From Aphanizomenon flos-aquae FACHB-1287 (GTDB lineage Bacteria > Cyanobacteriota > Cyanobacteriia > Cyanobacteriales > Nostocaceae), in the NCBI RefSeq assembly GCF_014698755.1, contig NZ_JACJTO010000012.1:1-64000 (forward strand): a stretch of 64,000 bases of DNA. Direction: 5' to 3'. A program made the translations under genes and the position numbers. Below, piece by piece: positions 2,646 to 56,785 of this stretch; position 1 is the stretch's first letter; each line of letters opens with the position of its first letter. The notes under the pieces are model-generated. The model saw nothing but the letters and a program-made list of their open reading frames with translations, searched no databases and was not told the origin of the DNA.

Positions 2646-2649
2646 GATT

Positions 2650-3752: not shown

Positions 3753-4595
3753 TTACTTTGTCCCGCGTAATAAACCAAAGCGAACTAACCCAGTTTCATA
3801 ACCTCGACGCATTAACCCCAAAGACAATGCTCCTTGAATTGTACTCCAACCCGCCATTAATAAACCGATAAATGCTTGGGGCGTAAATGCTGAATCAATT
3901 ACCACATTCCAAAAAGGTGCAACTGCGGTTGACCAATCAGCCGTGCGAATATTAGTTAATGGTAATTGCCAAGCGATCGCTTCATACTCCGCTAAAGAAA
4001 TTACATACGGTAAACAATAGACCTGATAAATATCCTGCAAGTGCTTTTGTTCATCCGCAGTCAGTGGTGACTTATCCGTATTTCGATGACACCATGTCAC
4101 CATAATCAAAGTCCCACCGGGTTTTAACACGCGATAGCACTCTTGCAAAAATTTAGTTTTATCTGGCATATGTTCACCGCTTTCTAGTGACCATACCAAA
4201 TCAAAAGAATTATCCTCAAAGGGCATTTCCTGGGCATTGGCCACCATGAATCTAGCCTTTTGACTCAAATTCATTGCTAAAGATCTTTCCATGGCTCTAG
4301 CGGCTTGTACAGGACTCAATGTAATTCCCGTGGCATTTGCCCCAAACTTTTCAGCTAAGTATAAAGAACTACCACCTATTCCACAGCCCACATCAAGGAT
4401 ATTTTTAGCACTATGAACATCAGCCCATTTTAGCAGTTCTTCAATTAAATCAATTTGTGCTTGACGGCGTTCTTTCACCTGTTTACCATCTACACCATAA
4501 TAACCGTGGTGCATATGTTCTCCCCAAATCTGCTCCCATAGACTGGAAGAAGCATCGTAAAATTCCTGAATTTGCTTGTAAAGTATTTGGCTCAT
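3753..4595 (-). CDS. gamma-tocopherol methyltransferase
   Basis: A SAM-dependent class I methyltransferase of 280 residues. It would methylate gamma-tocopherol to alpha-tocopherol, the last step of the pathway. The SAM-binding motif I ILDVGCGIGGSSLYL is at residues 66-80, and WSLESGEHMPDK and VLKPGGTLIMVTWCHR follow. The N-terminal FYDASSSLWEQIWGEHMHHGYYG and the C-terminal PYVISLAEYEAIA closely fit the cyanobacterial and plant gamma-TMT (slr0089/VTE4) pattern. The tocopherol cyclase and the MPBQ methyltransferase are not in this window. A sterol- or sarcosine-type methyltransferase is less likely given the strong N-terminal match. Confidence 0.85.
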   Translation of the reverse strand: MSQILYKQIQEFYDASSSLWEQIWGEHMHHGYYGVDGKQVKERRQAQIDLIEELLKWADVHSAKNILDVGCGIGGSSLYLAEKFGANATGITLSPVQAARAMERSLAMNLSQKARFMVANAQEMPFEDNSFDLVWSLESGEHMPDKTKFLQECYRVLKPGGTLIMVTWCHRNTDKSPLTADEQKHLQDIYQVYCLPYVISLAEYEAIAWQLPLTNIRTADWSTAVAPFWNVVIDSAFTPQAFIGLLMAGWSTIQGALSLGLMRRGYETGLVRFGLLRGTK

Positions 4596-4766
4596 TAATT
4601 TAGTAATAAAAAGATTACAGGAAATTGAAAAAATATATTCTTAGGCTACCATCTATGTTTTTAATTAGATAGGGCTATTATTTCGCCTGGGAATAACTGA
4701 TTAATTCTACCTTGCGAATCTTGAAAATAACCTAAATACACAAATTTTCTTGGTTTTTAATTATTT

Positions 4767-6122
4767 ATGACTGTTGCTCGGACAATTTGTTTGGGGTTTA
4801 TCGCTGTCATTCTCTTAGGAACAATTCTCTTAACCATGCCTTTTTCTACTGGTAATGGTAATTGGAATGATCCCATTGTGGCATTATTTACTTCCACCTC
4901 CGCAGTTTGTGTGACTGGTTTAGCAGTGGTAGACACTGGTACTGACTTTTCCTTTTTAGGTCAGTTATTTATTGCTCTTTTAGCCCAAATTGGTGGTTTA
5001 GGTTATATGACAACTACCACATTTTTAATGTTATTAATGGGCAGAAAATTTGATTTGCGACAAAAAGTAGCAATTCAACAAGCTTTAGATCGTCCGGGGA
5101 TGAGTGGAAGCACTCAAATTATCCGTTCTATTATTGCAACTACCCTATTGTTTGAACTTACGGGAGTATTGCTATTAATGATAGCTTTTGTCCCGGAAAA
5201 AGGTTGGCAAGAAGGAACTTGGTTAGCAATTTTTCATAGTGTTAGTGCTTGGAATAATGCTGGATTTAGTCTATTTAAAGATAATTTAATCAGTTATCAA
5301 TCTTCTCCTTTAGTGATTTTAACAATTGGCACATTAATTATTTTTGGAGGTATTGGTTATCAGGTAATTTTGGATATGTATTTATGGTTGAGAGATAGCT
5401 TTACTTATCAAAGTAATCGCATCATCAAAAAAACAAGTTTTTTAACATTTTCCCTAGATTTTAAAGTTGCTATGAGTACAACTTTAATATTATTAATATT
5501 AGGCACAATTGCTCTTTTCTTAATAGAAGTTAGAAATGATAGTACCTTTGGAAAACTAAATTTATCCGACAAACTATTAGTTGCTTGGTTTCAGTCAGTT
5601 ACTACCAGAACCGCTGGTTTTAATAGTATTGATATTGGGAAAATGACCAATGCTGGATTATTCATTATGATTGCTCTCATGTTTATTGGTGCAAGTCCTG
5701 GAGGTACAGGAGGAGGAATTAAAACCACAACTTTACGAGTGATTACGAGTTGTACAAAGGCAATTTTGCAAGGGAAAGAGGAGGTATTATTATATAATCG
5801 CAAAATTGCCATATCATTAATTTTGAAAGCCGTGGGTGTGGTGTTTGGTTCATTAGCAACAGTGATTGTAGCTACGGTTTTAATTAGTATTACCGACCCG
5901 GAATTTCCCTTTATTCAAATTCTTTTTGAAGTAGTATCAGCCTTTGGTACAGTGGGACTTTCTACAGGAATTACAGCTACTGTTTCTACCGCAGCCAAAT
6001 TAATTTTAATTCTCACCATGTATATTGGTCGAGTTGGTATTTTACTATTAATGTCATCCATACTAGGTGATCCTCGTCCTAGCAGAATTCATTATCCTGA
6101 AGAAAATCTCCTTGTAGGATAA
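4767..6122 (+). CDS. ktrB: Trk/Ktr-type potassium uptake channel subunit KtrB
   Basis: A 451-residue integral membrane protein of the TrkH/KtrB superfamily, the K+-translocating subunit. The fold is four M1-P-M2 units. The selectivity-filter-type segments, each with a conserved glycine, are seen as TSTSAVCVTGLAVVDT, HSVSAWNNAGFSLFKD, QSVTTRTAGFNSID and EVVSAFGTVGLSTGIT. The loop IGASPGGTGGGIKTTT is the glycine-rich gating loop of the family. The first residues MTVARTICLGF begin inside the first helix, so the start is tight. The partner ktrA follows on the same strand, separated only by a heptamer repeat array. Confidence 0.9.
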   Translation: MTVARTICLGFIAVILLGTILLTMPFSTGNGNWNDPIVALFTSTSAVCVTGLAVVDTGTDFSFLGQLFIALLAQIGGLGYMTTTTFLMLLMGRKFDLRQKVAIQQALDRPGMSGSTQIIRSIIATTLLFELTGVLLLMIAFVPEKGWQEGTWLAIFHSVSAWNNAGFSLFKDNLISYQSSPLVILTIGTLIIFGGIGYQVILDMYLWLRDSFTYQSNRIIKKTSFLTFSLDFKVAMSTTLILLILGTIALFLIEVRNDSTFGKLNLSDKLLVAWFQSVTTRTAGFNSIDIGKMTNAGLFIMIALMFIGASPGGTGGGIKTTTLRVITSCTKAILQGKEEVLLYNRKIAISLILKAVGVVFGSLATVIVATVLISITDPEFPFIQILFEVVSAFGTVGLSTGITATVSTAAKLILILTMYIGRVGILLLMSSILGDPRPSRIHYPEENLLVG

Positions 6123-6292
6123 TTACCAATTACCAATTACCAATTACCAATTACCCATTACCAATTACCCATTACCCATTACCCATTACCAATTACCAAT
6201 TACCCATTACCAATTACCAATTACCCATTACCCATTACCCATTACCCATTACCCATTACCCATTACCCATTACCCATTACCCATTACCAATT
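6122..6292. repeat. heptameric tandem repeat array (ATTACCA/ATTACCC)
   Basis: About 24 units of the heptamer ATTACCA or ATTACCC fill the whole interval between the ktrB stop and the ktrA ATG. The two variants are interspersed without an obvious higher-order period. Such short tandemly repeated repetitive (STRR) sequences are known in filamentous cyanobacteria. Because the array abuts the ATG, no purine-rich ribosome-binding site is present in front of ktrA. Confidence 0.95.
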
Positions 6293-6988
6293 ATGAATCT
6301 TTCATCATTAAAATTTCTTCGCAGTTTACGTAAAGATAACCACCAATTTGCTGTCATTGGTTTAGGTAGATTTGGTCGTTCTGTTTGTTCAACATTGCAT
6401 AATTTAGGTTATCAAGTATTAGCTACAGACGTTGACGAAAAACGGGTTTCTGAGGCTTTGAATGAGCAAATAGTCAGTCATGCTTTACAACTAGATTCAA
6501 CCGAACCAGCAGCACTAAAAGAAGCCGGAATTTTTGAATTTGATACAGTAATTATAGCCATTGGTAACTACGTTCAAGAAAGTATTATTACTACTTTAAA
6601 CGTAAAAGAAGGAGGTGTACCTCACGTAATTGCTAAAGCCTCTAGTGAAGTTCACCATAAATTATTAAATCGAGTGGGAGCAGATCATGTAGTATTTCCT
6701 GAATATGAAGCCGGTTGTGCTTTAGCACGAACACTGACAAAACCAGGAATTTTAGAAAGATTTGATCTTGACCCAGATAATAGTATTGTGGAGTTAATTG
6801 TTCCTGATGAATTTCATGGGAAAACTATTGCTGAACTTCAACTTCGTAACCGTTATGGTTTAAATATGTTGGCCGTAAGTCATGATAGTAAATTTATCAT
6901 CAATCCTGAACCAACTAAACGTTTAGAAAAAGGTTCTGTAATGGTAGTAATTGGTTGTAATAAAGATATTAACCGGTTACCAATGTAG
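6293..6988 (+). CDS. ktrA: KtrA/TrkA regulatory subunit of potassium uptake
   Basis: A 231-residue cytosolic RCK protein that gates KtrB in response to nucleotide. The Rossmann motif GLGRFG is at residues 23-28, followed by the acidic end of strand 2 (ATDVDEKRV), giving an RCK_N domain to about residue 140. An RCK_C domain runs to the C-terminus (IVELIVPDEFHGKTIAELQLRNRYGLNMLAV...VMVVIGCNKDINRL). The start MNLSSLKFLRSLRK fits the family N-terminus. It lies directly after a repeat array that leaves no Shine-Dalgarno sequence, so translation may depend on coupling to ktrB or on an unstructured leader. Confidence 0.9.
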   Translation: MNLSSLKFLRSLRKDNHQFAVIGLGRFGRSVCSTLHNLGYQVLATDVDEKRVSEALNEQIVSHALQLDSTEPAALKEAGIFEFDTVIIAIGNYVQESIITTLNVKEGGVPHVIAKASSEVHHKLLNRVGADHVVFPEYEAGCALARTLTKPGILERFDLDPDNSIVELIVPDEFHGKTIAELQLRNRYGLNMLAVSHDSKFIINPEPTKRLEKGSVMVVIGCNKDINRLPM

Positions 6989-7035
6989 GGAACAGGAAAC
7001 AGAGAATAATAATTTTCTCAATTACCAATTACCCA

Positions 7036-8166
7036 TTATTTTGGATTTGTCATTTGTTTATTTGGTGTCAAATTTAGTAAAGTAGTTTTGTCCCTTACTG
7101 AAGTATTTATAGGTAAGTCTTCAACTGGGGGAAGATTTGCCGGCAGTTGTTCAACTGGTGGGGTAATAATTGGTGTTCCATTATTGGGTTGATTTACTGG
7201 CAATTGCTTGGGTGCTAAAATCTGGGTAATTTGCTGCATGATTTGTTCTGTTTTAGTCACTTGCTCAATATTTCCCTCTTTTATGTACTGTTCACGAGCA
7301 CGTTTTAAGGCTCGAGCAGATTCATTCCAAGCACCTTGATTATACAAAGTTACTCCTAAATTATAATAAGCTGAGGTATTTTTAGCATTTTGAACAACTG
7401 CTTGTTGATAAATATTAATTGCTTCGGCAGTTCGGCCTTGATTTACTAAAAGACTACCCAAATTATTATAGGCTAGAAAATTTTCAGGATCTATTTTTAA
7501 AACTTCCTGATAGGCAGAAATAGCCGCTTCTATTTGACCTTCTTGTTGTTGAACAATTGCTAAATTAAAGTAGGCCTTTTTATGATTTCTGTTTAGGTTA
7601 ATTGCTTGTTGATAGGCAGCAATTGCATCTTGACGCTGTTCTTGTTCATACAATAAAACTCCTGTATTATAATAGGCATCAGCTAAAGTAGGAGTAACAA
7701 CTAAGGCTTGACGATAAGCTGTAATTGCGGCTTCTTTTTGCCCTTGTCTTTGCAAAGCTACACCTAAATTATAATAAGCTTCTCCCAAATTGGGACTTAA
7801 TCTAATAGCTTCTCCAAATTCTTGGATAGCTAAATTGAGACGATTTTGCTGCAAAAAAATGTTCCCTAAATAATTTCGCGCTGTGCCAATATTAGGGTCT
7901 CGCTCTAAGGCTTTGCGAAAAGCAATTTCTGAATTCTGAAAATCTTGACGATTATAAAATGTTACCCCCTGTTGAAAAAATATAGCTGCATCTAAATCTT
8001 GAGAAACAACTTCTGCTGCTAATAGCTTACTATTAGGAGCATGAATAATTGCAGGTAAGGTCAACATTAAAAATGCAGAAGAAGTAGAGATAATAGTCGT
8101 TAATACTTGCTTGTACGTAGCCAGGACTACGTTGAAATGCGGAAATTTATGAAATATCTGATACAT
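7036..8166 (-). CDS. secreted or anchored TPR-repeat protein
   Basis: 376 residues with a hydrophobic N-terminal segment (about residues 22-45, TIISTSSAFLMLTLPAIIH) that looks like a signal peptide or anchor. Then come about seven consecutive TPR units of 34 residues, each with the pattern A...LG......G....AI..Y..A...NP. The tail (from about residue 310) is rich in Pro, Asn and Thr and low-complexity. TPR arrays bind proteins or peptides; a periplasmic scaffold or envelope role is a reasonable inference. No operon partner is adjacent on the same strand. Confidence 0.8.
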   Translation of the reverse strand: MYQIFHKFPHFNVVLATYKQVLTTIISTSSAFLMLTLPAIIHAPNSKLLAAEVVSQDLDAAIFFQQGVTFYNRQDFQNSEIAFRKALERDPNIGTARNYLGNIFLQQNRLNLAIQEFGEAIRLSPNLGEAYYNLGVALQRQGQKEAAITAYRQALVVTPTLADAYYNTGVLLYEQEQRQDAIAAYQQAINLNRNHKKAYFNLAIVQQQEGQIEAAISAYQEVLKIDPENFLAYNNLGSLLVNQGRTAEAINIYQQAVVQNAKNTSAYYNLGVTLYNQGAWNESARALKRAREQYIKEGNIEQVTKTEQIMQQITQILAPKQLPVNQPNNGTPIITPPVEQLPANLPPVEDLPINTSVRDKTTLLNLTPNKQMTNPK

Positions 8167-42885: not shown

Positions 42886-43590
42886 ATGACAACTTCTACT
42901 GCTTTTGACTTAGAATCACTAAATCAGCAATTTGAAATCGCAACTCCCACAGAAATTTTAGCCTGGTCTGTGCAAAATATCCCCACAGGATTAGTACAAA
43001 CCAGCGCGTTCAACGTAGATGATGTCATCCTAACACATATTTTCTACAATGTACTTCAGCATCCAGTCCCGGTTATTTTCCTTGATACCCTTTATCACTT
43101 CCCTCAAACCCTAGAATTGGTTGCTCAAGCCAAGGAAATCTATAATCTAGACTTGAAAACCTATAAAACACCAGATGTAGATAGTCGTGAGGCTTTTACT
43201 GCTAAATTTGGTGAAGCCCTCTGGGATACAGATATTGCTAAATTCCACGACATTACCAAAATTGAACCACTTCTCCGGGGTTTGGACGAATTAGAAACTG
43301 TAGCTTGGATTACAGGTCGCCGTCGTGATCAAGCTGTGACTCGTGCTAATATGCCTGTATTTGAATTAGATGGTAAAGGGAGATTAAAAATTAACCCTCT
43401 AGCTACTTGGACACGCAAACAAAGCTGGGCTTATGTAGCTGAACATAAGGTAATTTACAACCCTCTCCATGACGAAGGTTATCCTAGTATTGGTGACGAA
43501 CCTATTACCACCAAGGTCGCTGACGGTGAAGACGAACGTGCTGGACGTTGGAGAGGAAGTGAAAAAACTGAGTGTGGAATTCACATTTAG
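42886..43590 (+). CDS. cysH: phosphoadenylyl-sulfate (or adenylyl-sulfate) reductase
   Basis: 234 residues. It reduces PAPS (or APS) to sulfite in assimilatory sulfate reduction. The PP-loop-like ATP-pyrophosphatase fold is visible with TSAFNVDDVILTHIF, VIFLDTLYHFPQTLE and WITGRRRDQAVTRANM. The C-terminus has the catalytic KTECGIHI. There are no paired cysteines for a Fe-S cluster in the CC...CxxC pattern, which favours the PAPS-type, thioredoxin-dependent enzyme. Confidence 0.92.
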   Translation: MTTSTAFDLESLNQQFEIATPTEILAWSVQNIPTGLVQTSAFNVDDVILTHIFYNVLQHPVPVIFLDTLYHFPQTLELVAQAKEIYNLDLKTYKTPDVDSREAFTAKFGEALWDTDIAKFHDITKIEPLLRGLDELETVAWITGRRRDQAVTRANMPVFELDGKGRLKINPLATWTRKQSWAYVAEHKVIYNPLHDEGYPSIGDEPITTKVADGEDERAGRWRGSEKTECGIHI

Positions 43591-43672
43591 TTAGTTGTCG
43601 GTGGTTAGTTGTTAGTGGTTAGTTGTTAGTGGTCAGTGGTCAGTTGTTAGTGGTCAGTGGTCAGTTGTTAGT
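43591..43672. repeat. GTCAGTGGTCAGTTGTTAGT repeats, left of the four-helix gene
   Basis: Tandem units of GGTCAGT, TGTTAGT and GGTTAGT fill the gap between cysH and the four-helix-bundle gene. An inverted block of the same family lies after that gene (44057-44094). Heptamer-based arrays of this kind occur in several gaps in this window. Confidence 0.85.
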
Positions 43673-45415: not shown

Positions 45416-45907
45416 TTATCTATTTAATCTATTTTGCCAATTGGTAATAGCTCGCAAATATGCCATAATAGGAATTTGATAAACTTCAATAAAAATCCAA
45501 ACAATAATTCCTAAATGTGACAAAAAAGTTAACACAGTCCAAACCAATGGAATCCATGAGAGGGGAACATGAGAGCGAGGAGGAAAATAATATGCTGTTA
45601 CCCCTATTAAAGTGGTTGGTAAAATAATAAAAGCAATTGCAGATAAACCATAACCCCAACCTAATTCCACATTTTCTAATCGTGCTTGTGTCCACGTAAA
45701 TCCATTCCAATTCCAAATTAAAGGTGGTTCTCTAGAAGGCATTTTAACCTGTTGTAATTCTAGGTTAACTGTGAAAATTTCGTTACAAAAATCACAGCAC
45801 ATAGCCTCCATCATTAACATTTGAGAAATTTTACCAACGCGACATATTGGACATGGATAATCTTCTTGAAAGTTTAAAGCTGTGGACAAAATTGGAGATT
45901 TGGGCAT
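45416..45907 (-). CDS. zinc-ribbon membrane protein, unknown
   Basis: 163 residues. A CxxC pair (CPICRVG, residues 19-22) and a CCDFC motif (about 37-41) form a zinc ribbon near the N-terminus. Two membrane helices follow at about 88-110 (YGLSAIAFIILPTTLIGVTAYYF) and 120-142 (WIPLVWTVLTFLSHLGIIVWIF). I recognise it only as a cyanobacterial hypothetical type. No neighbour explains it. Confidence 0.65.
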   Translation of the reverse strand: MPKSPILSTALNFQEDYPCPICRVGKISQMLMMEAMCCDFCNEIFTVNLELQQVKMPSREPPLIWNWNGFTWTQARLENVELGWGYGLSAIAFIILPTTLIGVTAYYFPPRSHVPLSWIPLVWTVLTFLSHLGIIVWIFIEVYQIPIMAYLRAITNWQNRLNR

Positions 45908-46029
45908 AATTAAACTACTCCTTTTTTAATATCTGTAATTGATAATTAATAATTGCACGATACATGACAAATTTTTAATCAAAAATAAATTATAAAGCGA
46001 ATTTGACTCCTGGATTTTTTTTAATAAAA

Positions 46030-46058
46030 CAACCTAGTTTTTTGATAAAACCAGGTTG
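46030..46058 (-). terminator. probable terminator of the 19-residue-repeat gene
   Basis: On the minus strand CAACCTGGTTTT pairs imperfectly with AAAAAACTAGGTTG and is followed by TTTTATT. It lies 33 bp after the stop at 46091. Confidence 0.5.
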
Positions 46059-46090
46059 AATATGATATGATAATAATATTGAAAGTGTAA

Positions 46091-46396
46091 CTAATCTAGA
46101 AAACCCATCAAAATTTCGGAATCATCAAAGGTATTTGGTGCTATGGGACGATTTCCAAATATAGAATAGTTTTCAGCAATTACCAAAGCACTAGAAGCAA
46201 TGGGACGAATACCAGACAAGTTGATACTATCAACCACTTGGAATGTATTTGCACCTATGGGACGAATTCCCATGGAGTTGTAGGTATCAACTACTTGTAA
46301 AGTCCCAGCAGTAATGGGACGCACTCCGGCGACTATGATTGTCCCTGGGGTAGTTTGTTCCGTATTACCACTGTTATCCTGATTATTTTCTTCCAC
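46091..46396 (-). CDS. small protein with exact 19-residue repeats
   Basis: 101 residues from GTG at 46396, preceded by AAGGAG. Four repeats with the core G(V/I/N)RPI begin with RPI at residues 26, 45, 64 and 83, a strict 19-residue spacing; the repeat consensus is roughly GIRPIGANTFQVVDSYNLS. The first 20 residues are acidic and disordered. I recall no named family. The regular period suggests a small beta-solenoid or a binding repeat. Confidence 0.65.
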   Translation of the reverse strand: MEENNQDNSGNTEQTTPGTIIVAGVRPITAGTLQVVDTYNSMGIRPIGANTFQVVDSINLSGIRPIASSALVIAENYSIFGNRPIAPNTFDDSEILMGFLD

Positions 46397-46686
46397 TGTT
46401 ATTTCTCCTTTGTATCTGATGACACTTTCTCAAACTGAATCTTTGTTTGTTAAGTGAATTTTACAATAATTAAGGAAAGAAGTATTTTTTTTCCCATATA
46501 TTCAGAGTCTAACCCTAAACCAGCATATATCACAGGTTAAATCTGAGATTGATATATTTTTTAATCCGGTTAGACTTTTGATTATATCAGATCATGTACA
46601 TTTATTTTGCTACGGATAAGTTATCTCCAGTGATAAAATAATTTTATCTTGCTGATAATATTCCTATGATCATCAAATTTATTCAT

Positions 46687-47094
46687 TTAAAGAATTAAGT
46701 AACTATGCCATTTTGGTTGAGAATCTTGACGGTTTTTTTCTGGTATTAATAACCGCCAACTTTTACCTTCTTTCTGAATTTGTAGATAAACTTCAAAGGG
46801 TTTTTCTATTTGTTTAAAACTGCGTTTTGGTAGTTTTACAGTAAAGTCATAATTTCCCTTTACCCGATAAGCTGGTAGGTTTTCAATGCTAAGGGGTTGT
46901 TGTTGAGTAATAGATATTCGCTGAATGTTAACTTTTTGGAAGTTTAAATCTAGTTGTTGATTAAGTTGCTGTTGGGTTTGTTTTAACTGGAGTGCAATGG
47001 CTTTTTGCACTAATTCCGGTGTGGGTAATAAGACAATACTAGTACAAGCTGTGAGGAAAATTATCAAAATTGTTGTAAAAGTTAATTTAATCAT
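46687..47094 (-). CDS. putative lipoprotein
   Basis: 135 residues with an N-terminal signal ending in a lipobox LTAC (Cys17). The mature part has a glutamine-rich helix (LKQTQQQLNQQLDLNFQKV) followed by a beta-strand region (YRVKGNYDFTVKL...FEVYLQIQKEGKSWRLL). Function unknown. A four-unit 10-bp repeat lies just upstream. Confidence 0.65.
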   Translation of the reverse strand: MIKLTFTTILIIFLTACTSIVLLPTPELVQKAIALQLKQTQQQLNQQLDLNFQKVNIQRISITQQQPLSIENLPAYRVKGNYDFTVKLPKRSFKQIEKPFEVYLQIQKEGKSWRLLIPEKNRQDSQPKWHSYLIL

Positions 47095-47160: not shown

Positions 47161-47418
47161 CTAACCACCATTTACTGGCGGAATTAATACCACTTCGTCA
47201 CCATTTTGGAGAATAGTATCTGGTTCAACAAATTGTAAATTCACACCAAAGCGGGTTATTTCCCGCCATTTGCTTAATTTTGGTTGTTTAGCAATTAAGT
47301 AATCACAGACAGCTTGAACTGGTGTACCATTAGGAAAATCTAATTCTAATTCTGACACATCAAAAGCTTCTTGATAAACAGCAAATAACTTGACGGTTAC
47401 GGTGGTAGATTGGGACAT
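47161..47418 (-). CDS. MoaD/ThiS family ubiquitin-like sulfur carrier
   Basis: 85 residues with a beta-grasp fold and the C-terminal GG (VVLIPPVNGG) that is adenylated and thiocarboxylated. Signs are TVTVKLFAVYQEAFDVSELELDFPNGTPVQAVCDYL and NGDEVVLIPPVNGG. It could be molybdopterin synthase small subunit or a sulfur donor in methionine or threonine-linked metabolism. A moaE gene is not adjacent. It lies 23 bp downstream of the receptor-like ATPase gene, same strand. Confidence 0.82.
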   Translation of the reverse strand: MSQSTTVTVKLFAVYQEAFDVSELELDFPNGTPVQAVCDYLIAKQPKLSKWREITRFGVNLQFVEPDTILQNGDEVVLIPPVNGG

Positions 47419-47441
47419 ATAATTTTTGTATACAACCTAAT

Positions 47442-50102
47442 TTAATCATTGGGAATCATTGTAAACTGACCTTGTTGAATTTGTAAAAGAATAGATTGAC
47501 CTTCTCGCTCTCTTTCTGGTGTAAACTTGAGAGGATAGCCAGAAGTTTCACTTGCGGTCAGACTGACATTTTCCAGCCCTCTTAATACCGTATCACGAGT
47601 TGCATTATTAGATAAAGTTTTAATTAAAGCCTGAGTTGCATCAAAGCTAATTGCAGTCCGCCAACTAATACCTCCCCCCCACTTCCGCGCTGATTTTTCC
47701 GCAAAAGGTTGAGCTTGTAATGTTTCTCCAAACCAGGGTACTGCAATTCTTAAACCCTCTACATTCTTCCTACCGTTGTCTAGGATATCACCCTTATAAA
47801 GAATACCTCCACCTAACATTTTTAATTCTGGTTTTGGTGGATTTTGGGTTTTGAGTGTTTTGTTTATTTTGGTAATCTCTTTAGCAATCGGAATAGCTTT
47901 ATTAATGGTATCTGCATCTGGAAACAATAACGCTGCTTCTGCCTTATAATCATAGACACTGTTAGTAACTTCTTTCTCTGGATCAAATTTAGAAGCAGTT
48001 AAATTAATTAAAGGTTTACGAACCACCTCACCTCCTAGTTTTTCAAATTGATTTGTGAATATCTCTCTGATACTATTACTATATGTACTACTTGGATTTC
48101 CAAAAACTACTGCTTTTTTTAATTGCAGAGTTTTATAAGTGTATTCAGCAAGTGTTTTTCCTGCACTTTTATCAGAATAAACTACTCTAAAGAAAACTGG
48201 ATTGTTTAGAAAAATGCTGGCACTTGTGGGGGAAACAAGTGCTAATTTTGCTTTTTCATATTCTGGTAATGCAAGCCGAGTAGCTTCACTAGAATTATGT
48301 CCAATTACTCCGATTATGGAAGAATCTTTGGTGAGTTCTTGTGCTACTTCTTTAGCTTTTTTTGTGTTGCTATCATTAGCAATTACAATCTCTAGTAATC
48401 TGCGGTTTAATCCCTTATTCCTATTGAATTGGTCTTGTGCTTGGGCTACCCCACGTAATACTTCTACAGGAGTAGTTTTATTTTTGTCTAATGATACAAC
48501 TACTGCTAAGGTAAACGGAGAACCTTGTTGACGAGCCAGGGAATTATTATAATAAATTAGCACTTCTGGGTCATAGCGATTAGCGTCTACAGCTTGTTGA
48601 AATAATGTAATTGCTTCTTGATAATTAGCTTGTTGGAAGGCTTGAATACCTTTGTCACGAGGGATATTATTAATCTCAGGAAAGAAAGTGCTATTACCTC
48701 GACTAATTCTACTATTATCTACTACACAAAAAACACCTAATTCCTTTCTTTCATCTGTTGGACAAGTTTTCATTTGAGAAATACCTGTCAATAGAAGACT
48801 AGCAGTAATAAAAACAGCAGAGGCTATTGTAGTTAAAACAATCAAATTAGACTTTACGGGAATAGCTGAAGTATTAACTTCACTTGGTTGATGTAAATTA
48901 ATATTAATGTCACCAGGATATGACAAGGAACTATTAATAGTTTTTGAATGTAGAATTATATGACTAGGACTTTTTTTTTGCTCAATTTTATCTAACTCGT
49001 GAATTTCGTCCCTTAGTGGGTGACGTTGTATAATCCAGAGCCGGACAAATTCTATTTTAACCCTGTCCTTTACTTGATCTAAAAAATCATTAACTCTGAG
49101 AATTTTTGTTGTTTCTATAATTAATTTATTTTCTATTTCAGGTCTATATTTTCTGATTAATTCAATATAATTCTCTGAATTTTCTTGTGCTTCTGCTATT
49201 GCTGCAAAAACAACCCTTTCTAGAATTGGAAATCCTTCCCAAAACCATGTTAAACCAGCTTCAGATAATTCAATTGCTTTGTTAATAATGAATTTGACAT
49301 CTTTACTATTAACTGTCCATTTATTCTCCTCTCGCGCTCTCCCAAAAATAGTAAAACATATTGCTTGGGTAAAATAAGGGTGTCCTAATGATAGCTCAAA
49401 AATGGTTTTTATTGCATCTTCCTCATATTCAAGGCTATTTTTCGCTGGGTCAACAATCAATTTTCTTGTACTATCTTCATCTAATAACCCAATTTCCTTT
49501 TTAGGTACATCTTTAAATAGCTTACTTATTCTGTGATTATTTACCGATCTTTGCTCTATTAATGAAATTAAAAATAGTTTTTTGCTAAGATTAATCAGTG
49601 CGGATAAATAGTTATAAACTTGTTCTAATAATTCTGAATCATGACTATTCATTAAAGCATCAAATTCATCAAGTAGCAATACTAGATTTTTGTTTTCTAA
49701 TAATTGATATACTTGGGGTAAGAACTCATGAGAAAAAATTCCTAAATCTAATTCTAACTCTGTAATTTCCGGTAGTTTAATATTTTTATTATCTAACGAG
49801 AGATTACTAACTATCTCCTGAGCTAAAACTACTAAAATTGTACTTAGCGATTCTTGACTATAAGATTGTAAATTAAATGCAACAAAAACACACTCATTTA
49901 AGTCATTCAAGCCATGAGGAATATTCCTAATGACGGATGACTTACCAATGCGTCGTTGACCATATAAGCAGATGATCTTTTGATTATGTTGAATACTGTC
50001 TTGAATGAACGAAAATAGGTTTTCTCGCCCAAAAAACAACTGTTGGTCAATGGGACGACCAATAATATAAGGATTCCTTTGAGACATAAGAGAATTAATC
50101 AT
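47442..50102 (-). CDS. P-loop ATPase fused to an ABC-type ligand-binding domain (copy 1)
   Basis: 886 residues. An N-terminal STAND/AAA-like ATPase domain (about 10-380) has Walker A GQRRIGKSS at 48-56 and Walker B LVLLLDEFD at 140-148. A membrane helix at about 425-447 (LTTIASAVFITASLLLTGI) follows. Then comes a short TPR-like unit (about 490-530, AFQQANYQEAITLFQQAVDANRYDP), and a Peripla_BP_6-like ligand-binding domain (about 535-880) with LAVVVSLD...GVIGHNSSEATRLALPEYEK. The binding half should be outside the cytoplasm and the ATPase inside. A start at 50087 (MSQRNPY) is possible. The C-terminal half is almost identical in DNA to copy 2. Confidence 0.8.
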   Translation of the reverse strand: MINSLMSQRNPYIIGRPIDQQLFFGRENLFSFIQDSIQHNQKIICLYGQRRIGKSSVIRNIPHGLNDLNECVFVAFNLQSYSQESLSTILVVLAQEIVSNLSLDNKNIKLPEITELELDLGIFSHEFLPQVYQLLENKNLVLLLDEFDALMNSHDSELLEQVYNYLSALINLSKKLFLISLIEQRSVNNHRISKLFKDVPKKEIGLLDEDSTRKLIVDPAKNSLEYEEDAIKTIFELSLGHPYFTQAICFTIFGRAREENKWTVNSKDVKFIINKAIELSEAGLTWFWEGFPILERVVFAAIAEAQENSENYIELIRKYRPEIENKLIIETTKILRVNDFLDQVKDRVKIEFVRLWIIQRHPLRDEIHELDKIEQKKSPSHIILHSKTINSSLSYPGDININLHQPSEVNTSAIPVKSNLIVLTTIASAVFITASLLLTGISQMKTCPTDERKELGVFCVVDNSRISRGNSTFFPEINNIPRDKGIQAFQQANYQEAITLFQQAVDANRYDPEVLIYYNNSLARQQGSPFTLAVVVSLDKNKTTPVEVLRGVAQAQDQFNRNKGLNRRLLEIVIANDSNTKKAKEVAQELTKDSSIIGVIGHNSSEATRLALPEYEKAKLALVSPTSASIFLNNPVFFRVVYSDKSAGKTLAEYTYKTLQLKKAVVFGNPSSTYSNSIREIFTNQFEKLGGEVVRKPLINLTASKFDPEKEVTNSVYDYKAEAALLFPDADTINKAIPIAKEITKINKTLKTQNPPKPELKMLGGGILYKGDILDNGRKNVEGLRIAVPWFGETLQAQPFAEKSARKWGGGISWRTAISFDATQALIKTLSNNATRDTVLRGLENVSLTASETSGYPLKFTPEREREGQSILLQIQQGQFTMIPND
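47835..48665. repeat. near-identical segment shared with 50546-51376
   Basis: Within the ligand-binding parts of the two ATPase genes, about 830 bp match base for base at an offset of 2711 bp, except for four differences clustered at about 48167-48190. Both edges change abruptly into diverged sequence. The rest of the genes differ clearly, so this block was probably homogenised recently. Confidence 0.85.
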
Positions 50103-50155
50103 ACCTTTATAATACCGCTAAAAGTGTTAATTTCATCGGTAAAACCTCATAGCTG

Positions 50156-53100
50156 TTATGGAGTAATTTCTACAAATTTACCCCCCTTAATTTCTAAAAG
50201 AATAGATTGACCTTCACGCTCTCTTTCTGAGGTAAACCTGAGAGGATAGCCAGAAGTTTCACTTGCGGACAGACTGACATTTTCCAGATCTCTTAATACT
50301 GTATCACGAGTTGCATTATTAGATAAAGTTTTAATTAAAGCTTGAGTTGCATCAAAGCTAGTTGCAGTCCGCCAACTAATATCTCCTCCCCACTTCCGCG
50401 CTGATTTTTGGGCAAAAGATTGAGCTTGTGATGTTTCTCTAAACCAGGGTACTGCAATTATTAAACCCTCTACATTATTGCCACCGCTGGTTAAAGTTTC
50501 ATTTGTATAAAGAGTATCTCCAGCTAACATTTTTAATTCTGGTCTTGGTGGATTTTGGGTTTTGAGTGTTTTGTTTATTTTGGTAATCTCTTTAGCAATC
50601 GGAATAGCTTTATTAATGGTATCTGCATCTGGAAACAATAACGCTGCTTCTGCCTTATAATCATAGACACTGTTAGTAACTTCTTTCTCTGGATCAAATT
50701 TAGAAGCAGTTAAATTAATTAAAGGTTTACGAACCACCTCACCTCCTAGTTTTTCAAATTGATTTGTGAATATCTCTCTGATACTATTACTATATGTACT
50801 ACTTGGATTTCCAAAAACTACTGCTTTTTTTAATTGCAGAGTTTTATAAGTGTATTCAGCAAGTGTTTTTCCTGTACTTTCATCAGAATTAACTGCTCTA
50901 AAGAAAACTGGATTGTTTAGAAAAATGCTGGCACTTGTGGGGGAAACAAGTGCTAATTTTGCTTTTTCATATTCTGGTAATGCAAGCCGAGTAGCTTCAC
51001 TAGAATTATGTCCAATTACTCCGATTATGGAAGAATCTTTGGTGAGTTCTTGTGCTACTTCTTTAGCTTTTTTTGTGTTGCTATCATTAGCAATTACAAT
51101 CTCTAGTAATCTGCGGTTTAATCCCTTATTCCTATTGAATTGGTCTTGTGCTTGGGCTACCCCACGTAATACTTCTACAGGAGTAGTTTTATTTTTGTCT
51201 AATGATACAACTACTGCTAAGGTAAACGGAGAACCTTGTTGACGAGCCAGGGAATTATTATAATAAATTAGCACTTCTGGGTCATAGCGATTAGCGTCTA
51301 CAGCTTGTTGAAATAATGTAATTGCTTCTTGATAATTAGCTTGTTGGAAGGCTTGAATACCTTTGTCACGATAGGTATTAGTAATCTCTGAGAAGAAAAT
51401 GCTATTACCTCGACTAATTCTACTATTATCTGCTACACAAAAAACACCAAAGGCCTTTCTTTCACTTGGTGGACAAGTTCTCAAACCTTGGGAAATACCT
51501 ACACCAATAACTACAACTCCAGCTAATCCTAAAGATGCTATTGGTCTTGAAATACGGTTGAGCCATTGGAGCATGATTGTAGAAGGTTTTTTATTTAAAG
51601 ATTTAGCCGCAACGTTAAGATTAGTGTTAGACCGAAGGGCTTGAATTTCTTTTAATCTTTGTTGAAATGATATTCTGTTTGGATCAATTTTTAAACCTAA
51701 TTGACATCGTTCCGTTGCTTTAATCCATTCTCTTGCAATTATCAATTTATGGACATAATTTTCTATTGTCTGTAAAAAACCATCTTTACTACTTTCGCTA
51801 TCAATTTCGTTAGCTAGTCTGTAAATTTCCAAGGCTTGCTCAAAATTTTCTGCCTTTGAGTATTTTTCAGCTACAGTTAATAAAGGCTGTAAAACAGACT
51901 GTTGTTTATTTATATTTCCGATAAAAGAATAGAAATGATAGGCTCGTTCGTAAAGTTCACAGGCTTTATTAAGTTCTTGAATCTTTAAATATTCGTCAGC
52001 CAAAGATGTTACAGTTTTAAAGTTATTAGGATTAAGCTTTAAAGCCAGTTCATAAGTTTGTACCGCCTGTGTATCATGATGTTCTCGCAAATCATCTGCT
52101 ACTGACAAGAGCTTATTAATATTTTCTTGTTTAACTGTCTCTAAATTGCTAATTTCATCTTTTAGCTTATGGCTTTTCACCAACCAACGACGGACAAATT
52201 CTACCTTAACCCTGTTATTATCTAAAAAACCATATTCATGTAATTGTTCGTCTGCTTTCTTCAAATATTCTGTTTCTATTCCATGGTTTCTTAATAGCAT
52301 TAGCTGGGGAGGTTCATTTTCTTTAATAGGTATATTTTGAGCCTCTGCTGCTGCTGTAAAAATAACTTGCTGCTCAGTAGTTAATCCGCGCCAGAACCAA
52401 TCTAAACCACCTTCAGCTAATCCAATTGCTCTATCTACAATACTTTTAACATCATGACCATTTATACTCTGGGGAAGCACATTTGTTGGAGTATGGCGAT
52501 CGCGTGCTAGATTATGAATGGCATAACATATACACTGGGTAAAATAAGGATGTCCTGCGGATAATTGAAAAATTGCTTGTATTGCTTCTTCTTCATAGTT
52601 TAAAATATTCTCATCAGGTTGAATAATTAACTTTTGAGTATCCTCTTTATTTAACAAACCAATTTCTATATTTGGTGATCCTCGGAAGAAAGAAGATAAG
52701 TTTCCTAACTTTGATATATGTCTTCCTACTATTGGGATAATAAATAATTTATTATCTTTTTGCAGTAATTGAATAATATAATTACAAAAGTTATTACTAT
52801 ATGTATCTAATTCAGTATCTCTTTCAGTCAAAACATCAAATTCATCCCATAGCAAAACCAATTTTTTATTACCTAATTGTTGATAAACTGTTGGTAGAAA
52901 TTCACGAGAAAAAATCTCAATATTGGTAGGAATATTCTCCGCTAAATGGCTTAAAACTTGCTTATTGGTTTCTAGGTTTTCTATAATTCCAATCGCAATT
53001 AAACTTAGAATTTTTTGAGTAGACAAATTTTCTTCATCGTTAAAATCCAAACTGTTAAAATCGAAACTGATAAAAACGAATTCATTTGTACTCAATTTCT

Positions 53101-53290
53101 GACTCAATTTTTTAGGAATTTGTGCAATTACAGATGATTTGCCAATCCGTCTTTGACCATATAATAAAATTAGTTGTTCATTGTTTTGAAGACTATCATT
53201 AATATCGCTAAACTCAGGTTCGCGTCCAAAAAATTTATTTGGATCTCTAATTGGAACACCTATGATGTAAGGATTTGGACGGAAAGGCAT
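50156..53290 (-). CDS. P-loop ATPase with TPRs fused to an ABC-type ligand-binding domain (copy 2)
   Basis: 1044 residues, same plan as copy 1 but longer. The ATPase domain (about 5-385) has Walker A GQRRIGKSS and Walker B LVLLWDEFD, and RHISKLGNLSSFFRGSP beyond. A TPR block covers about 395-560 (AVQTYELALKLNPNNFKTVTSLADEYLKI, KAENFEQALEIYRLANEID). A membrane helix is at about 582-602 (IASLGLAGVVVIGVGISQG), then the TPR-like unit and Peripla_BP_6-like domain. AAGGAG before the ATG is a good ribosome-binding site. It lies 53 bp upstream of copy 1, same strand, so the two are probably co-transcribed. Confidence 0.82.
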   Translation of the reverse strand: MPFRPNPYIIGVPIRDPNKFFGREPEFSDINDSLQNNEQLILLYGQRRIGKSSVIAQIPKKLSQKLSTNEFVFISFDFNSLDFNDEENLSTQKILSLIAIGIIENLETNKQVLSHLAENIPTNIEIFSREFLPTVYQQLGNKKLVLLWDEFDVLTERDTELDTYSNNFCNYIIQLLQKDNKLFIIPIVGRHISKLGNLSSFFRGSPNIEIGLLNKEDTQKLIIQPDENILNYEEEAIQAIFQLSAGHPYFTQCICYAIHNLARDRHTPTNVLPQSINGHDVKSIVDRAIGLAEGGLDWFWRGLTTEQQVIFTAAAEAQNIPIKENEPPQLMLLRNHGIETEYLKKADEQLHEYGFLDNNRVKVEFVRRWLVKSHKLKDEISNLETVKQENINKLLSVADDLREHHDTQAVQTYELALKLNPNNFKTVTSLADEYLKIQELNKACELYERAYHFYSFIGNINKQQSVLQPLLTVAEKYSKAENFEQALEIYRLANEIDSESSKDGFLQTIENYVHKLIIAREWIKATERCQLGLKIDPNRISFQQRLKEIQALRSNTNLNVAAKSLNKKPSTIMLQWLNRISRPIASLGLAGVVVIGVGISQGLRTCPPSERKAFGVFCVADNSRISRGNSIFFSEITNTYRDKGIQAFQQANYQEAITLFQQAVDANRYDPEVLIYYNNSLARQQGSPFTLAVVVSLDKNKTTPVEVLRGVAQAQDQFNRNKGLNRRLLEIVIANDSNTKKAKEVAQELTKDSSIIGVIGHNSSEATRLALPEYEKAKLALVSPTSASIFLNNPVFFRAVNSDESTGKTLAEYTYKTLQLKKAVVFGNPSSTYSNSIREIFTNQFEKLGGEVVRKPLINLTASKFDPEKEVTNSVYDYKAEAALLFPDADTINKAIPIAKEITKINKTLKTQNPPRPELKMLAGDTLYTNETLTSGGNNVEGLIIAVPWFRETSQAQSFAQKSARKWGGDISWRTATSFDATQALIKTLSNNATRDTVLRDLENVSLSASETSGYPLRFTSEREREGQSILLEIKGGKFVEITP

Positions 53291-53376
53291 ATTTTATGTA
53301 CTCCTTGTTAATTTCAGATCAATTATTGTCTATAAACTCAGTCGAGAAGTCCAAAATAACTTCTCTATTCAAATAT

Positions 53377-54651
53377 CTATGCAAGAAATAGTGCTACCTT
53401 TGTAATCCAATCTAAGGCAGATCCTACTTGCTCTGGATGTTTCCCCAGCCAAGTAACTACTTCTTTAACCTTGTTTACTTGTCCATGACTCATTAGATTC
53501 ATAAATTCCTTTTCTCTGTCTCTGATTGATTGTTCTGGAGTCTGTAAAATCTCCTGAATTACCCATTTTTTCATAAGTGGTGAAGTGAAAGAATAGAACT
53601 TTTCGGTTTCTATAGCACTGGAAGTAATTACAATCACACCCTGTTCTTGCAACCTAATTAAAGATCGTCCATCTTGTGTAAAAATGCGGCCAATGCCTTT
53701 TAATTTAAACTTTAGCTCCCCTATATGACCTCCCATATCTAATAAGGCTATCAGCATTAACAACACCTGTTCTTTAGGATTACATCTACGCCAAATTGTT
53801 TGGAAAATCTGTTGAGTATCTCTTTCAAAATTCCCAGCAAATGAGTTAATATTGGCATTATTCCCATTCTGTAGCTCTCTGTACAGAAAAAAACCAGCAG
53901 TTTGTACTAAAGTCGGATGTCCACCAGTAATATTAATAATTTCATGTCGTAATGTTGGTGGTCTAATTATTGTCAATAGTTCCACTAATTCCTCAGTTGT
54001 GAACAATTTTAGAGGTTGAAATAAATAGTGATTGTACCAAGGAGAAGCATTGGGATTAAGTTTAGGACCTAGTTCATTGAGGCGCTGGAGTGAAGCCACA
54101 ATCATGGAGAAGTGTTCACTTTCTTCAGCATGAACAGCCAAACTACGACACTGGGCTAAAAATGTTTCCATTTCATTCTCAGTGTATTGGTTATTTGTTA
54201 CCAATGCTGCATCAAAATCATCTACCAACAGTAGTAAAAACTTATTTTTTCTACCCAGTATCCGTAATGCTTGACGCAAACTATCACCAGTCACCGTTTT
54301 TTCGAGTAACGGCTTGATTTCAACCTGTAGTTCTGGTTCACTGTCTAATTTATCGTGTAGCAAACTTACAGATTCACGCCAAAAACCACCAGGAGTGAAG
54401 GGAATGAGATTTTGACTTTGACAATTGAGGATAACAGGGATACCTTGGGATGGGTCTAAGCCATATTCAGTCCATATTTGCTTGTTAGCCAATTTACGCA
54501 AGAAAGAAGACTTACCCATTCCCGGACCACCCCAAATAGCGAAATGGCTGCGGTTATAGATTTGGTCAAAAGCAAAGTTAATTTCTGATTTCCGTCCTAT
54601 AAAACTTTCTGTGGGAACTGGTTTTCCAGGAAAAAAAGGATTGGGAGTCAT
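53377..54651 (-). CDS. P-loop ATPase without ligand-binding domain
   Basis: 424 residues. Walker A GGPGMGKSS is near residue 40, Walker B LLLLVDDFDAAL near 140, and the nearby FEPLKLFTTEELVELL type helix is present. The second half has a winged-helix-like part (KEQVLLMLIALLDMGGHIGEL...RLQEQGVIVI) as in STAND proteins. The C-terminus is short and helical (NKVKEVVTWLGKHPEQVGSALDWITKVALFL) and has no membrane helix clearly following the ATPase, though the last 15 residues are hydrophobic. It is the first gene of the three-ATPase cluster; the next starts 86 bp downstream. Confidence 0.75.
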   Translation of the reverse strand: MTPNPFFPGKPVPTESFIGRKSEINFAFDQIYNRSHFAIWGGPGMGKSSFLRKLANKQIWTEYGLDPSQGIPVILNCQSQNLIPFTPGGFWRESVSLLHDKLDSEPELQVEIKPLLEKTVTGDSLRQALRILGRKNKFLLLLVDDFDAALVTNNQYTENEMETFLAQCRSLAVHAEESEHFSMIVASLQRLNELGPKLNPNASPWYNHYLFQPLKLFTTEELVELLTIIRPPTLRHEIINITGGHPTLVQTAGFFLYRELQNGNNANINSFAGNFERDTQQIFQTIWRRCNPKEQVLLMLIALLDMGGHIGELKFKLKGIGRIFTQDGRSLIRLQEQGVIVITSSAIETEKFYSFTSPLMKKWVIQEILQTPEQSIRDREKEFMNLMSHGQVNKVKEVVTWLGKHPEQVGSALDWITKVALFLA

Positions 54652-55190
54652 GGTGAGTTTACTTCTGGAGGCCGAGAAAATAGCTGATTTTACGTATAAT
54701 TTCAGTATACCATCAAAATTGTACTTGTTAGATCACTTAAAAGCAATATCCAATCAGAATTTAATGTTTTTATAACAAGTATTATATTATACTAATTTTT
54801 ATCCTATTACCAGATGATTCGCAGTTACAGCTAAGTAGGTTGACGTTAAAAATTGTCGTGATAGCGAGGTAAGAGGTCATAGGTAAGACTAAAAAAGTTT
54901 AGCCCTTGAGTACATCATAAGCAAAATCCGAACAAAAAATCTCATAAAGCTTGCTAAGTACGAGAAATAAGCCTTATATTTGAATATAATGGCAAAATAT
55001 TCAATATTCCCCTGTTTTCTGTTCCCTGTTTCCTTTTACTGAAATTTTAGACTTAAAAGATGTTTTAAAAATTGACGACGATTATGAATCGCTGCTGAAA
55101 AGTGAACAATTCAAAAATAAAGTATGAATAATAAACTCTTACCAATTACCAATTACCAATTACCTATTACCTATTACCAATTACCAATTA
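54652..55190. other. 539-bp intergenic region
   Basis: No open reading frame of note. It carries a likely upstream region of the ATPase cluster at its left and, near 55141-55193, heptamer repeats (ACCAATT units) next to the DnaJ gene stop. The middle (about 54830-55010) has interrupted short frames that could be relics of an old gene, but I cannot assign them. Confidence 0.45.
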
Positions 55191-55796
55191 CTAAAGCTTT
55201 AATTCCAACCGTTGAAAATCCTGCTGTACCTCATTCCACAGAGCTTTATTATATGGGTCAGTTTTTAAGGCTTTTTTCAGATAAATTCTAGCCTTTGGTA
55301 ATTGGTTTTCTGCAATTAACGCTCGTCCCCAGATTTGATAAGCAATTGCTAACCATTGACGCACCTCCATATCTGCTGGTAAACGGGCCATTAAAGCTTC
55401 TGCTAGAGCAATAGCCTGGGGAAAACGTCTTTCCTGTAAAAACCGCTGTAACTGTTCATAAGTCTTCCATTTTAACCGTTTTTCTATATCCTCTAAATTT
55501 GGGGGGTGAGATGTAACCGTTGTTTTTGGGTCTGCTGATTGAGTTTGAACCTGTGTAGTGCTAGAAGCATAAGTTTTCTCCCCACCAGACTTTGACCTAA
55601 AATCCTCCGAAGGTAAGACAGTTTGTAGGAATTTATAAGCTTCAGTTACCGCAATAAATTTGTCTTTGGCTTTGAGATCATCTGGATTAATATCAGGATG
55701 ATATTGCTGTACCAATCGGCGATAGGACGCTTTAACATCAGCAAAAGAAGCTCCCGACCTTAAACCTAATATCCGGTAATAATCTTCAAGATTCAT
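55191..55796 (-). CDS. DnaJ-domain protein with TPR tail
   Basis: 201 residues. The J domain covers about 4-65 with YRILGLRSGASFADVKASYRRLVQQYHPDINPDDLKAKDKF (HPD motif present), so it can stimulate an Hsp70 (DnaK) ATPase. A polar linker follows. The C-terminal 90 residues contain TPR-like helices (FPQAIALAEALMARLPADMEVRQWLAIAYQIWGRAL). It lacks the Gly/Phe and zinc-finger parts of DnaJ proper. Two repeats sit around the gene; the clpP gene is upstream on the same strand, 118 bp away. Confidence 0.88.
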   Translation of the reverse strand: MNLEDYYRILGLRSGASFADVKASYRRLVQQYHPDINPDDLKAKDKFIAVTEAYKFLQTVLPSEDFRSKSGGEKTYASSTTQVQTQSADPKTTVTSHPPNLEDIEKRLKWKTYEQLQRFLQERRFPQAIALAEALMARLPADMEVRQWLAIAYQIWGRALIAENQLPKARIYLKKALKTDPYNKALWNEVQQDFQRLELKL

Positions 55797-56519: not shown

Positions 56520-56785
56520 CGTTTGTAATTGGTCAGTGGTTATTGGTCAGTGGTCATTGGTTATTGGTCATTGGTTATTGGTCATTGGTCATTGGTTATT
56601 GGTTATTGGTCATTGGTCATTGGTCATTGGTCATTGGTCATTGGTCATTGGTCATTGGTCATTGGTCATTGGTCAGTTTTCACCCATCACCCATCACCTA
56701 TTACCTATTACCCATCACCCATCACCTATTACCCATCACCTATTACCTATCACCTATTACCCATTACCCATCACCTATTACCTAG
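56520..56785. repeat. double heptamer array between clpR and clpP
   Basis: From about 56528 to 56672 the plus strand has repeated ATTGGTC/ATTGGTT heptamers (about 20 units). From about 56680 to 56783 it has ACCCATC/ACCTATT/ACCCATT units (about 15). The first block is G-rich and the second C-rich on this strand, so the halves are partly complementary in the clpR-clpP transcript. The array is open in all three plus frames because 7 is not a multiple of 3. Confidence 0.92.

Follow-up and report, generated by a model that had tools for sequence, protein, structure and literature searches.

Two membrane-tethered periplasmic-binding sensors and three STAND-like NTPases in a conserved cyanobacterial operon: a putative multi-subunit receptor

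Does each of the neighbouring cyanobacterial genes joining a P-loop NTPase to a periplasmic-binding domain encode a self-sufficient transmembrane sensor, or do they contribute to a receptor made of several parts? The question is raised by three intact open reading frames, all on the minus strand (as are all coordinates given below for their features), in the window, i.e. the whole stretch of 64,000 nt analysed here. Their order is C-B-A—gene C (424 aa; 53377..54651), gene B (1044 aa; 50156..53290) and gene A (886 aa; 47442..50102)—with 86 bp between C and B and 53 bp between B and A. The initial annotation had described A and B as adjoining genes, in each of which a single membrane helix connects a P-loop NTPase to a Peripla_BP_6 domain, with a third, shorter ATPase gene upstream on the same strand; the reading frames, Pfam and hydrophobicity confirm this layout, the third gene being C, which, beyond that two-gene view, is part of the same unit. 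The arrangement is real, neither a product of chance nor an assembly fault, since the same gene order recurs in many assemblies, in one of them on a contig of 5.15 Mb (L038).

Concerning the surroundings, Pfam agrees with the previous statement that no kinase, cyclase or transporter gene adjoins the operon: the four neighbours scanned, three downstream ORFs (45416-47094) and an upstream DnaJ gene, carry no transporter domain, and neither they nor A, B and C contain a permease or ABC nucleotide-binding domain, ABC_tran giving no match in the three proteins at E 0.1. Two ClpP-like ORFs, identified by eye, lie beyond the scanned neighbours. Within the operon, no effector domain was found in A, B or C, Peptidase_C14 included (Pfam), and PADLOC 2.0.0 returned no confident model of a known anti-phage system, its matches being weak ones to the P-loop parts only (best 1e-5). 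A promoter scan gave 32 sites against 37.2 expected.

The sensors are the most clearly recognizable parts. In B, the Peripla_BP_6 domain covers aa 708-1008 (50267..51169; Pfam 6e-23) and in A aa 549-863 (47514..48458; 1.2e-21), with scores of 83 and 78 bits, respectively, against a cut-off of 31.7. The AlphaFold2 model of B (mean pLDDT 87, pTM 0.51) contains a sensor resembling solved leucine- and GABA-binding proteins (best Foldseek match 3td9, E 3.6e-18, TMt up to 0.85), so that both Pfam and the predicted structure assign the C-terminal part to the periplasmic-binding fold, as the initial annotation had expected. The Ser/Thr motifs are retained in many sensor copies, and the Asp of the LAGDTLY site (Asp925 in B) occurs in 18 of 26 B copies vs 9 of 26 A copies, the window A having Gly; both elements are putative residues of the amino-acid pocket. 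Given the rarer Asp in A, an amino acid may not be bound in the same way by the two sensors.

Ahead of the sensor, B possesses a membrane helix at about aa 584-602 (51485..51541), placed by hydrophobicity (segment about 580-603) in a part where the model has low confidence; a hydrophobic segment is found in all 40 rows of alignment A4. Of these rows, 28 have the higher net charge N-terminal to the helix, whereas in 12 the charges are equal or the difference is reversed, the window B itself showing equal charges. In A, the helix lies at about aa 420-440 (48783..48845; hydrophobic segment about 413-444). It is followed in both proteins by a pair of juxtamembrane cysteines and an outer TPR: in B aa 604-683 (51242..51481), with Cys606, Cys618 and a TPR_2 match at 640-667 (3e-7), and in A aa 445-524 (48531..48770), delimited by alignment to B and the LNK profile. 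Both cysteines are present in 37/40 rows of A4. The TPRs, which had been overlooked before, thus occur after the helix in both A and B; in B they also precede it, at about aa 400-556 (51623..52093), seen as TPR matches and as consecutive helices of the model.

All three proteins match P-loop models at their N-termini. The A domain (aa 1-380; 48963..50102) is recognized above the Pfam cut-off by AAA_22 (1.5e-8), ATPase_2 (2e-8) and nSTAND1 (8e-7), the B domain (aa 1-385; 52136..53290) under the cut-off by ATPase_2 (6e-7) and AAA_16 (5e-6), and gene C, the first gene of the operon, just above it by AAA_22 (2.7e-6) and below it by NACHT (3e-4). Walker A is seen in 37 and an acidic Walker B in 36 of the 40 A/B rows of A4; for C relatives, the corresponding counts are 25/28 and 24/28, the window Walker A being GGPGMGKS (54508..54531). 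A GxP motif after the NTPase core is a feature of STAND NTPases, and a loose G[HS]P pattern follows the core in 38/40 A/B rows, but in only 18/28 C rows. The model of a natural A/B-C fusion (pLDDT 78, pTM 0.47) matched best PABY2304 (2qen; E 5.7e-9, TMt 0.65), which we take to be a STAND-type structure, followed by AAA+ and ORC/Cdc6 chains. It should be noted that the low pTM of this model and of that of B means that neither the packing of the domains nor any A/B-C interface is predicted. Pfam and the predicted structures thus bear out a STAND/AAA-like ATPase connected through one helix to an amino-acid-type periplasmic-binding fold in A and B, whereas C, having no hydrophobic helix, appears as a soluble STAND-like NTPase. 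The idea that the tail of C is an adapter which an effector also carries was rejected; its profile A7 matched 14 places in 12 of 40 family genomes, which were taken, by frame length, as C-type proteins.

The partnership with C is well conserved. In 44 of 45 loci with a full-length C, the same strand continues with an A/B-type NTPase gene, at a spacing of up to 562 bp. The next profile-matching gene after C encodes an NTPase-PBP protein in 34 loci, an NTPase without a visible sensor in 5 (L121 among them, cut by a contig end) and an NTPase-C fusion in another 5, with none in the remaining one. Six loci (L118, L124, L145, L146, L152 and L154) encode a single chain that contains both an A/B-type and a C-type NTPase, which, judged from sequence, suggests contact between the NTPases. 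Fewer than two sensors are seen in 18/45 loci, in some of them owing to contig ends. Where A lacks the sensor, it still ends in the membrane helix in all five complete cases (L127, L148, L150, L151 and L162), the B sensor being kept there. Four loci (L144, L145, L149 and L153) hold B with no A gene seen downstream, so that A is not always needed. Any other family of neighbours recurs in at most 7 of 55 loci, and most of these groups represent sister genomes at one site; kinase-like genes are common, and the group of seven, a kinase-like gene by eye, was taken as background. Within the genus (16 genomes), C is full-length in 10, a remnant in two, a distant match (31%) in one and absent from three, a deletion scar being present at the same site in G245. 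The genera with the PBP form are presumably filamentous.

The A and B genes differ sharply in how their two halves have evolved. In the window, the ectodomain tracts of A (aa 440-876; 47475..48785) and B (aa 598-1035; 50186..51499) share 95.3% DNA identity over 1312 bp, the 20-codon blocks that span aa 491-630 and 651-750 being 100% identical, whereas the NTPases are 44% identical. The pair analysis took in 26 of the 55 loci. In the trees of 46 rows (23 genomes), the NTPases fall into one A/B split with a single change (support 98), whereas the sensors require 12 changes and a single A clade is rejected (AU p 1.5e-5). These trees leave out three loci after the 52-row trees, which gave 4 changes for the NTPase and 14 for the sensor: L137 and L138 with duplicated B-type NTPases and L125 with long branches; in none of these three is the sensor the more similar half. 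In five of seven gene pairs compared (the window, L122, L160, L136 and L111), the alike tract starts at the helix or directly behind it, its start lying elsewhere in L158 and L128. These comparisons indicate that repeated sequence exchange has maintained the likeness of the A and B sensors, their NTPases remaining distinct. Diversification of the sensors of the DGR type was rejected, the differences between the window copies not being adenine-specific, and the dN/dS of 0.86 between these copies over the tract is not conclusive for positive selection.

To what extent do these results answer the initial question? A transmembrane sensor, as originally proposed, is still the natural reading, but not one made of one protein, given the conserved partner C, the occasional A/B-C fusions and the co-evolving sensors. 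We favour, with a probability of about 0.47, a hetero-oligomeric STAND-type transmembrane receptor in which C, B and A contribute three different NTPases and matched sensors for an amino-acid-like ligand. The sensors would be located on the outer side of the cytoplasmic membrane and form A-B pairs; binding of an amino-acid-like ligand would alter this pairing, the signal would pass through the helix, and the nucleotide state would be switched in a B-A-C assembly of NTPases. B would be the main receptor, because its sensor is kept where that of A is lost. By analogy with the sister CHAT-AAA_35 and AAA_35-TM-PBP pairs and with kinase and caspase fusions of the cassette, the most likely role of C would be to relay the signal to a pathway of the stress, death or phosphorylation type whose genes lie elsewhere.

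The four loci with B and without a seen A gene lower this multi-subunit reading and raise a neutral history, in which A and B arose by tandem duplication and recombine through their similar 3' halves, each forming a homomeric receptor independently of the other and the concert having no functional meaning. Adjacency and high DNA identity do favour recombination, the dN/dS is 0.86 overall, and the concert is discontinuous, sensor identity between A and B amounting to only 52-67% in 16/26 loci. On the other hand, exchange halts near the helix in those five of seven pairs even though the NTPase DNA is ~70% alike in L122 and L160, and the A and B NTPases remain two clades across the 23 genomes (three dropped), which makes such a history rather unlikely. 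The same signature of matched ectodomains on distinct cytoplasmic parts would be left by paired receptors, as proposed for the activating and inhibitory mammalian CEACAM receptors, with A and B competing instead of co-assembling and the exchange matching the ligand specificity of NTPases with opposite or different output. This is unlikely as well: a sensor-less A that retains its NTPase and membrane helix fits a co-subunit better than a competitor, and, between nearest relatives, the A sensor and the A NTPase show similar identities (88 and 88 for L111/L112, 93 and 95 for L116/L117, but 81 and 89 for L132/L134), so that the sensor gives no strong sign of an arms race.

An anti-phage or other conflict system with an extracytoplasmic trigger and cell death as its end could be seen in the patchy occurrence within the genus, the scar in G245 and a cassette common to caspase and CHAT proteins; with no effector in the operon, only the weak P-loop matches in PADLOC and an amino-acid-type fold suggesting that a metabolite is sensed and not a component of a phage, it is quite improbable. 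Nutrient uptake, with the NTPases powering transport of the bound ligand, draws on the nearness of the sensor to ABC solute-binding proteins, yet it is extremely improbable in view of the missing ABC_tran and transporter domains and of a sensor tethered in the same chain as the NTPase.

STAND-type switching is best known from intracellular immune receptors. The operon suggests that bacteria possess a little-known receptor composed of several parts, and C-B-A would extend such switching to an apparent membrane receptor for small molecules, the concerted sensors on diverged NTPases offering a natural experiment for a direct test of heteromeric sensing. A more speculative, fairly unlikely view is that of a counterpart of paired immune receptors in multicellular cyanobacteria, whereby two transmembrane NTPases with repeatedly overwritten ectodomains and a third, soluble NTPase would read the same extracellular molecule and take opposing or combinatorial decisions, possibly on life or death. 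The sensor cassette is also used as a module by other cyanobacterial proteins, where it follows kinase, caspase, CHAT or AAA_35 domains; this tally covers 23 long PBP proteins among the matches listed (at most four places per genome, chosen by open-frame length) and is no census. As kinases, caspases and CHAT proteases share it, the identification of one ligand would be informative for an entire class of cyanobacterial proteins of signalling and possibly of cell death. With PADLOC, confident CHAT or caspase models were obtained in six relatives only on proteins bearing those domains.

As for known systems, the initial annotation knew of no characterized one with this architecture. This holds for the NTPase-PBP operon and the concerted sensors, for which no paper was found in a search with many subscription papers and all of bioRxiv outside its coverage, and which variant domain spellings could escape; it does not hold for the sensor as such, PBP-caspase fusions and one TM-PBP conflict system having been published. 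Cyanobacterial caspases (orthocaspases) with ANF-receptor or Peripla_BP_6 domains share the sensor class of A and B (PMC2853523, PMC8283722, PMC3501461), but they carry a caspase protease, and the available parts of these papers describe neither an NTPase operon nor paired sensors. System 4 (EACC1 and caspase) of Kaur 2020, the one conflict system with such a feature in the available part of that work, includes proteins with a C-terminal TM and an extracellular PBP, as in A/B, yet differs in its caspase constant domain, its EACC1 gene and its mostly actinobacterial distribution (PMC7159879), C-B-A having no caspase and C, unlike the EACC1 TM protein, no hydrophobic helix. Closer to hand, the pair of CHAT-AAA_35 and AAA_35-TM-PBP—the former gene lying upstream of six of seven AAA_35-PBP genes, and the pair also occurring in the same genome (contig 49)—is likewise an NTPase pair with one subunit bearing a similar sensor cassette, although its NTPases belong to the AAA_35 family and the partner bears a CHAT protease domain. 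The branched-chain amino acid ABC solute-binding proteins LivJ/LivK resemble the A/B sensors in fold and sequence profile, whereas the latter are tethered to an NTPase, with no transporter genes among the neighbours scanned. Finally, with the STAND NTPases (nSTAND1, NACHT and the archaeal ATPase_2 type), A, B and C share the P-loop, the acidic Walker B and a GxP-like motif, but they are distinguished by the lack of an N-terminal effector, by a sensor placed behind a membrane helix and by two or three NTPase genes per operon.

Genes C, B and A constitute an operon on the minus strand of the window, which belongs to the 4.35-Mb genome G000, with a defined anatomy and gene order, natural fusions and concertedly evolving ectodomains. 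C (53377-54651; 424 aa) is separated by 86 bp from B (50156-53290; 1044 aa), which is followed after 53 bp by A (47442-50102; 886 aa). In Pfam, P-loop models match the N-termini of all three proteins—the match of B being below the cut-off—and Peripla_BP_6 forms the C-terminal domain of both B and A, each with a single hydrophobic helix between its two halves; no such helix is present in C. The initial annotation is confirmed, although it overlooked the TPRs (on both sides of the helix in B, only after it in A), the part played by C and how nearly identical the A and B sensors are. Concerning the surroundings, tandem 7-bp units (ATTGGTC, TCACCCA, ACCTATT) fill about 250 bp between two ClpP-like ORFs (56528-56784), further heptamer arrays occur at 43590-43672 and 55139-55191, and a 101-aa ORF with several degenerate GIRPI-type motif repeats (46091-46396) is retained at the same site in four loci.

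The NTPases of A, B and C are called here STAND-type, following what we take to be the definition of that class. Most A/B rows retain Walker A, Walker B and the GHP motif; among the 28 C rows, just 18 show the GHP pattern. The model of a natural A/B-C fusion (pLDDT 78, pTM 0.47) has the archaeal ATPase PABY2304 (2qen) as its top structural match, with further AAA+ and ORC/Cdc6 chains ranking next. The sensor profile, built from 40 relatives, matches binding proteins of known structure, namely those of the Leu/Ile/Val, leucine and GABA types. B as modelled by AlphaFold2 (mean pLDDT 87, pTM 0.51) resembles LivK 3td9, LivJ 4gnr and Atu2422 3ip5 (TMt 0.84-0.85) and the Anabaena solute-binding protein 4nv3 (0.82), with weaker similarity to glutamate-receptor ectodomains (0.61-0.64); the ligand may be amino-acid-like. 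At the acid position of the LAGDTLY motif, presumably with a role in the pocket, 18 of the 26 B copies and nine of the 26 A copies have Asp, and A of the window has Gly. Among the 40 alignment rows, all possess the hydrophobic segment, 37 have a Cys pair directly C-terminal of the helix, and the net charge on the N-terminal side of the helix, compared with the other side, is higher in 28, equal in eight and lower in four; these sequence features are compatible with, albeit no proof of, an outside sensor.

Of 386 genomes of the phylum, 97 gave a sensor-region match with E no higher than 1e-20 in the first search; the open frame is often just ~470 aa long, too short to include an NTPase. The C profile matches 18 of the 386, three of them with short remnants, and 54 loci among named genomes, all cyanobacterial by title; together with the window these make 55 loci, 45 with full-length C. 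In 44 of these 45, the next profile-matching gene on the same strand, within 562 bp, encodes an A/B-type NTPase, the exception having none there. This NTPase carries a sensor in 34 loci, no visible sensor in five (L121 being cut by a contig end) and a fused second C-type NTPase in five. Two sensor genes are present in 27 of the 45 loci (the second shortened in L131 and L155), one in 11 and none in seven, some low counts being due to contig ends. TPR or TPR + SH3 tails replace the sensor in sensorless relatives. No other neighbour family occurs in more than seven of the 55 loci; the output could pass through a partner encoded elsewhere.

A survey of 16 genus genomes, which sought C only, revealed full-length C in ten, short remnants in two (G048, G245), a distant 31% match in one and none in three. 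The counterparts of window positions 47162-47469 and 54518-54771 adjoin in G245, which is the mark of a same-site deletion of most of the operon. The remnants, at L110 9466-10030 (G245) and L109 258-997 (G048), share flanking genes in sister genomes, one of them being a deletion scar with the ends of A and C adjacent.

The ectodomains of A and B in the window share 95.3% DNA identity over 1312 bp, including fully identical runs, versus 44% for their NTPases, and 23 of the 26 loci, all but L125, L137 and L138, show a higher within-genome A-B identity for the sensor than for the NTPase. In L137 and L138, both receptor genes have B-type NTPases (72-79% alike) and sensors that are 55-67% alike, reversing the usual pattern. 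In the 52-row trees, the A/B label changes four times for the NTPase and 14 times for the sensor, at least 12 of the latter being forced by well-supported branches. With the three exceptions removed (46 rows), the changes number one and 12, respectively, the NTPase tree splits A from B (support 98), and a single A-sensor clade is rejected (p 1.5e-5); a genome's own two sensors are exclusive sisters in six of 23 genomes, its NTPases in none. Since the alike tract starts at or just past the helix end in five of seven gene pairs (window, L122, L160, L136, L111), the ectodomain is the usual unit of exchange; the main tract starts ~30 residues later in L158 and covers more of the gene in L128. The exchange is repeated rather than continuous, because A and B sensors are just 52-67% identical in 16 of 26 loci.

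Such exchange is possibly neutral. In the favoured model, the sensors would lie outside and B and A may form a heteromer coupled to C. The reading of A and B as paired receptors is kept as a bolder alternative, even though sensorless A genes count against it. Five complete loci have lost the sensor from A, keeping its terminal membrane helix and the B sensor; no A gene was seen in L144, L145, L149 and L153.

The sensor also occurs on other proteins. Among the matches listed, 23 long sensor proteins from outside the operon carry, according to Pfam, N-terminal AAA_35 (seven), protein kinase (seven), caspase (three), caspase + nSTAND1 (two), CHAT (one) or a second PBP (one), nothing being recognised there in the remaining two. 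Two giants of 1895 and 3057 aa (L065:2415-8102, L073:4108-13281) combine caspase, nSTAND1 and C-terminal Peripla_BP_6, one also with WD40, and a 934-aa protein (L068:5013-7817) has tandem Peripla_BP_6 and TPR matches with no N-terminal partner recognised by Pfam. A CHAT-AAA_35 gene immediately precedes six of the seven AAA_35-PBP genes, L057 having none; Pfam recognised the CHAT in L049, L051 and L059, whose N-terminal sequence, including the HG and NACYS motifs, recurs in L056, L058 and L060 and identifies it there. The L059 pair, on contig 49 of G000 (2355-4010, CHAT-AAA_35; 4513-7275, AAA_35-TM-PBP), is a two-gene relative in the same genome, with an evident protease domain.

The literature searched yielded no description of the C-B-A operon or of sensors evolving in concert, and excerpts of PMC8195603 and PMC10907252 describe no similar operon. 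As for related systems, caspases bearing a sensor of the Peripla_BP_6 kind are already published, according to passages of PMC2853523, PMC8283722 and PMC3501461, and TM + PBP is included in one conflict system in a section of PMC7159879.
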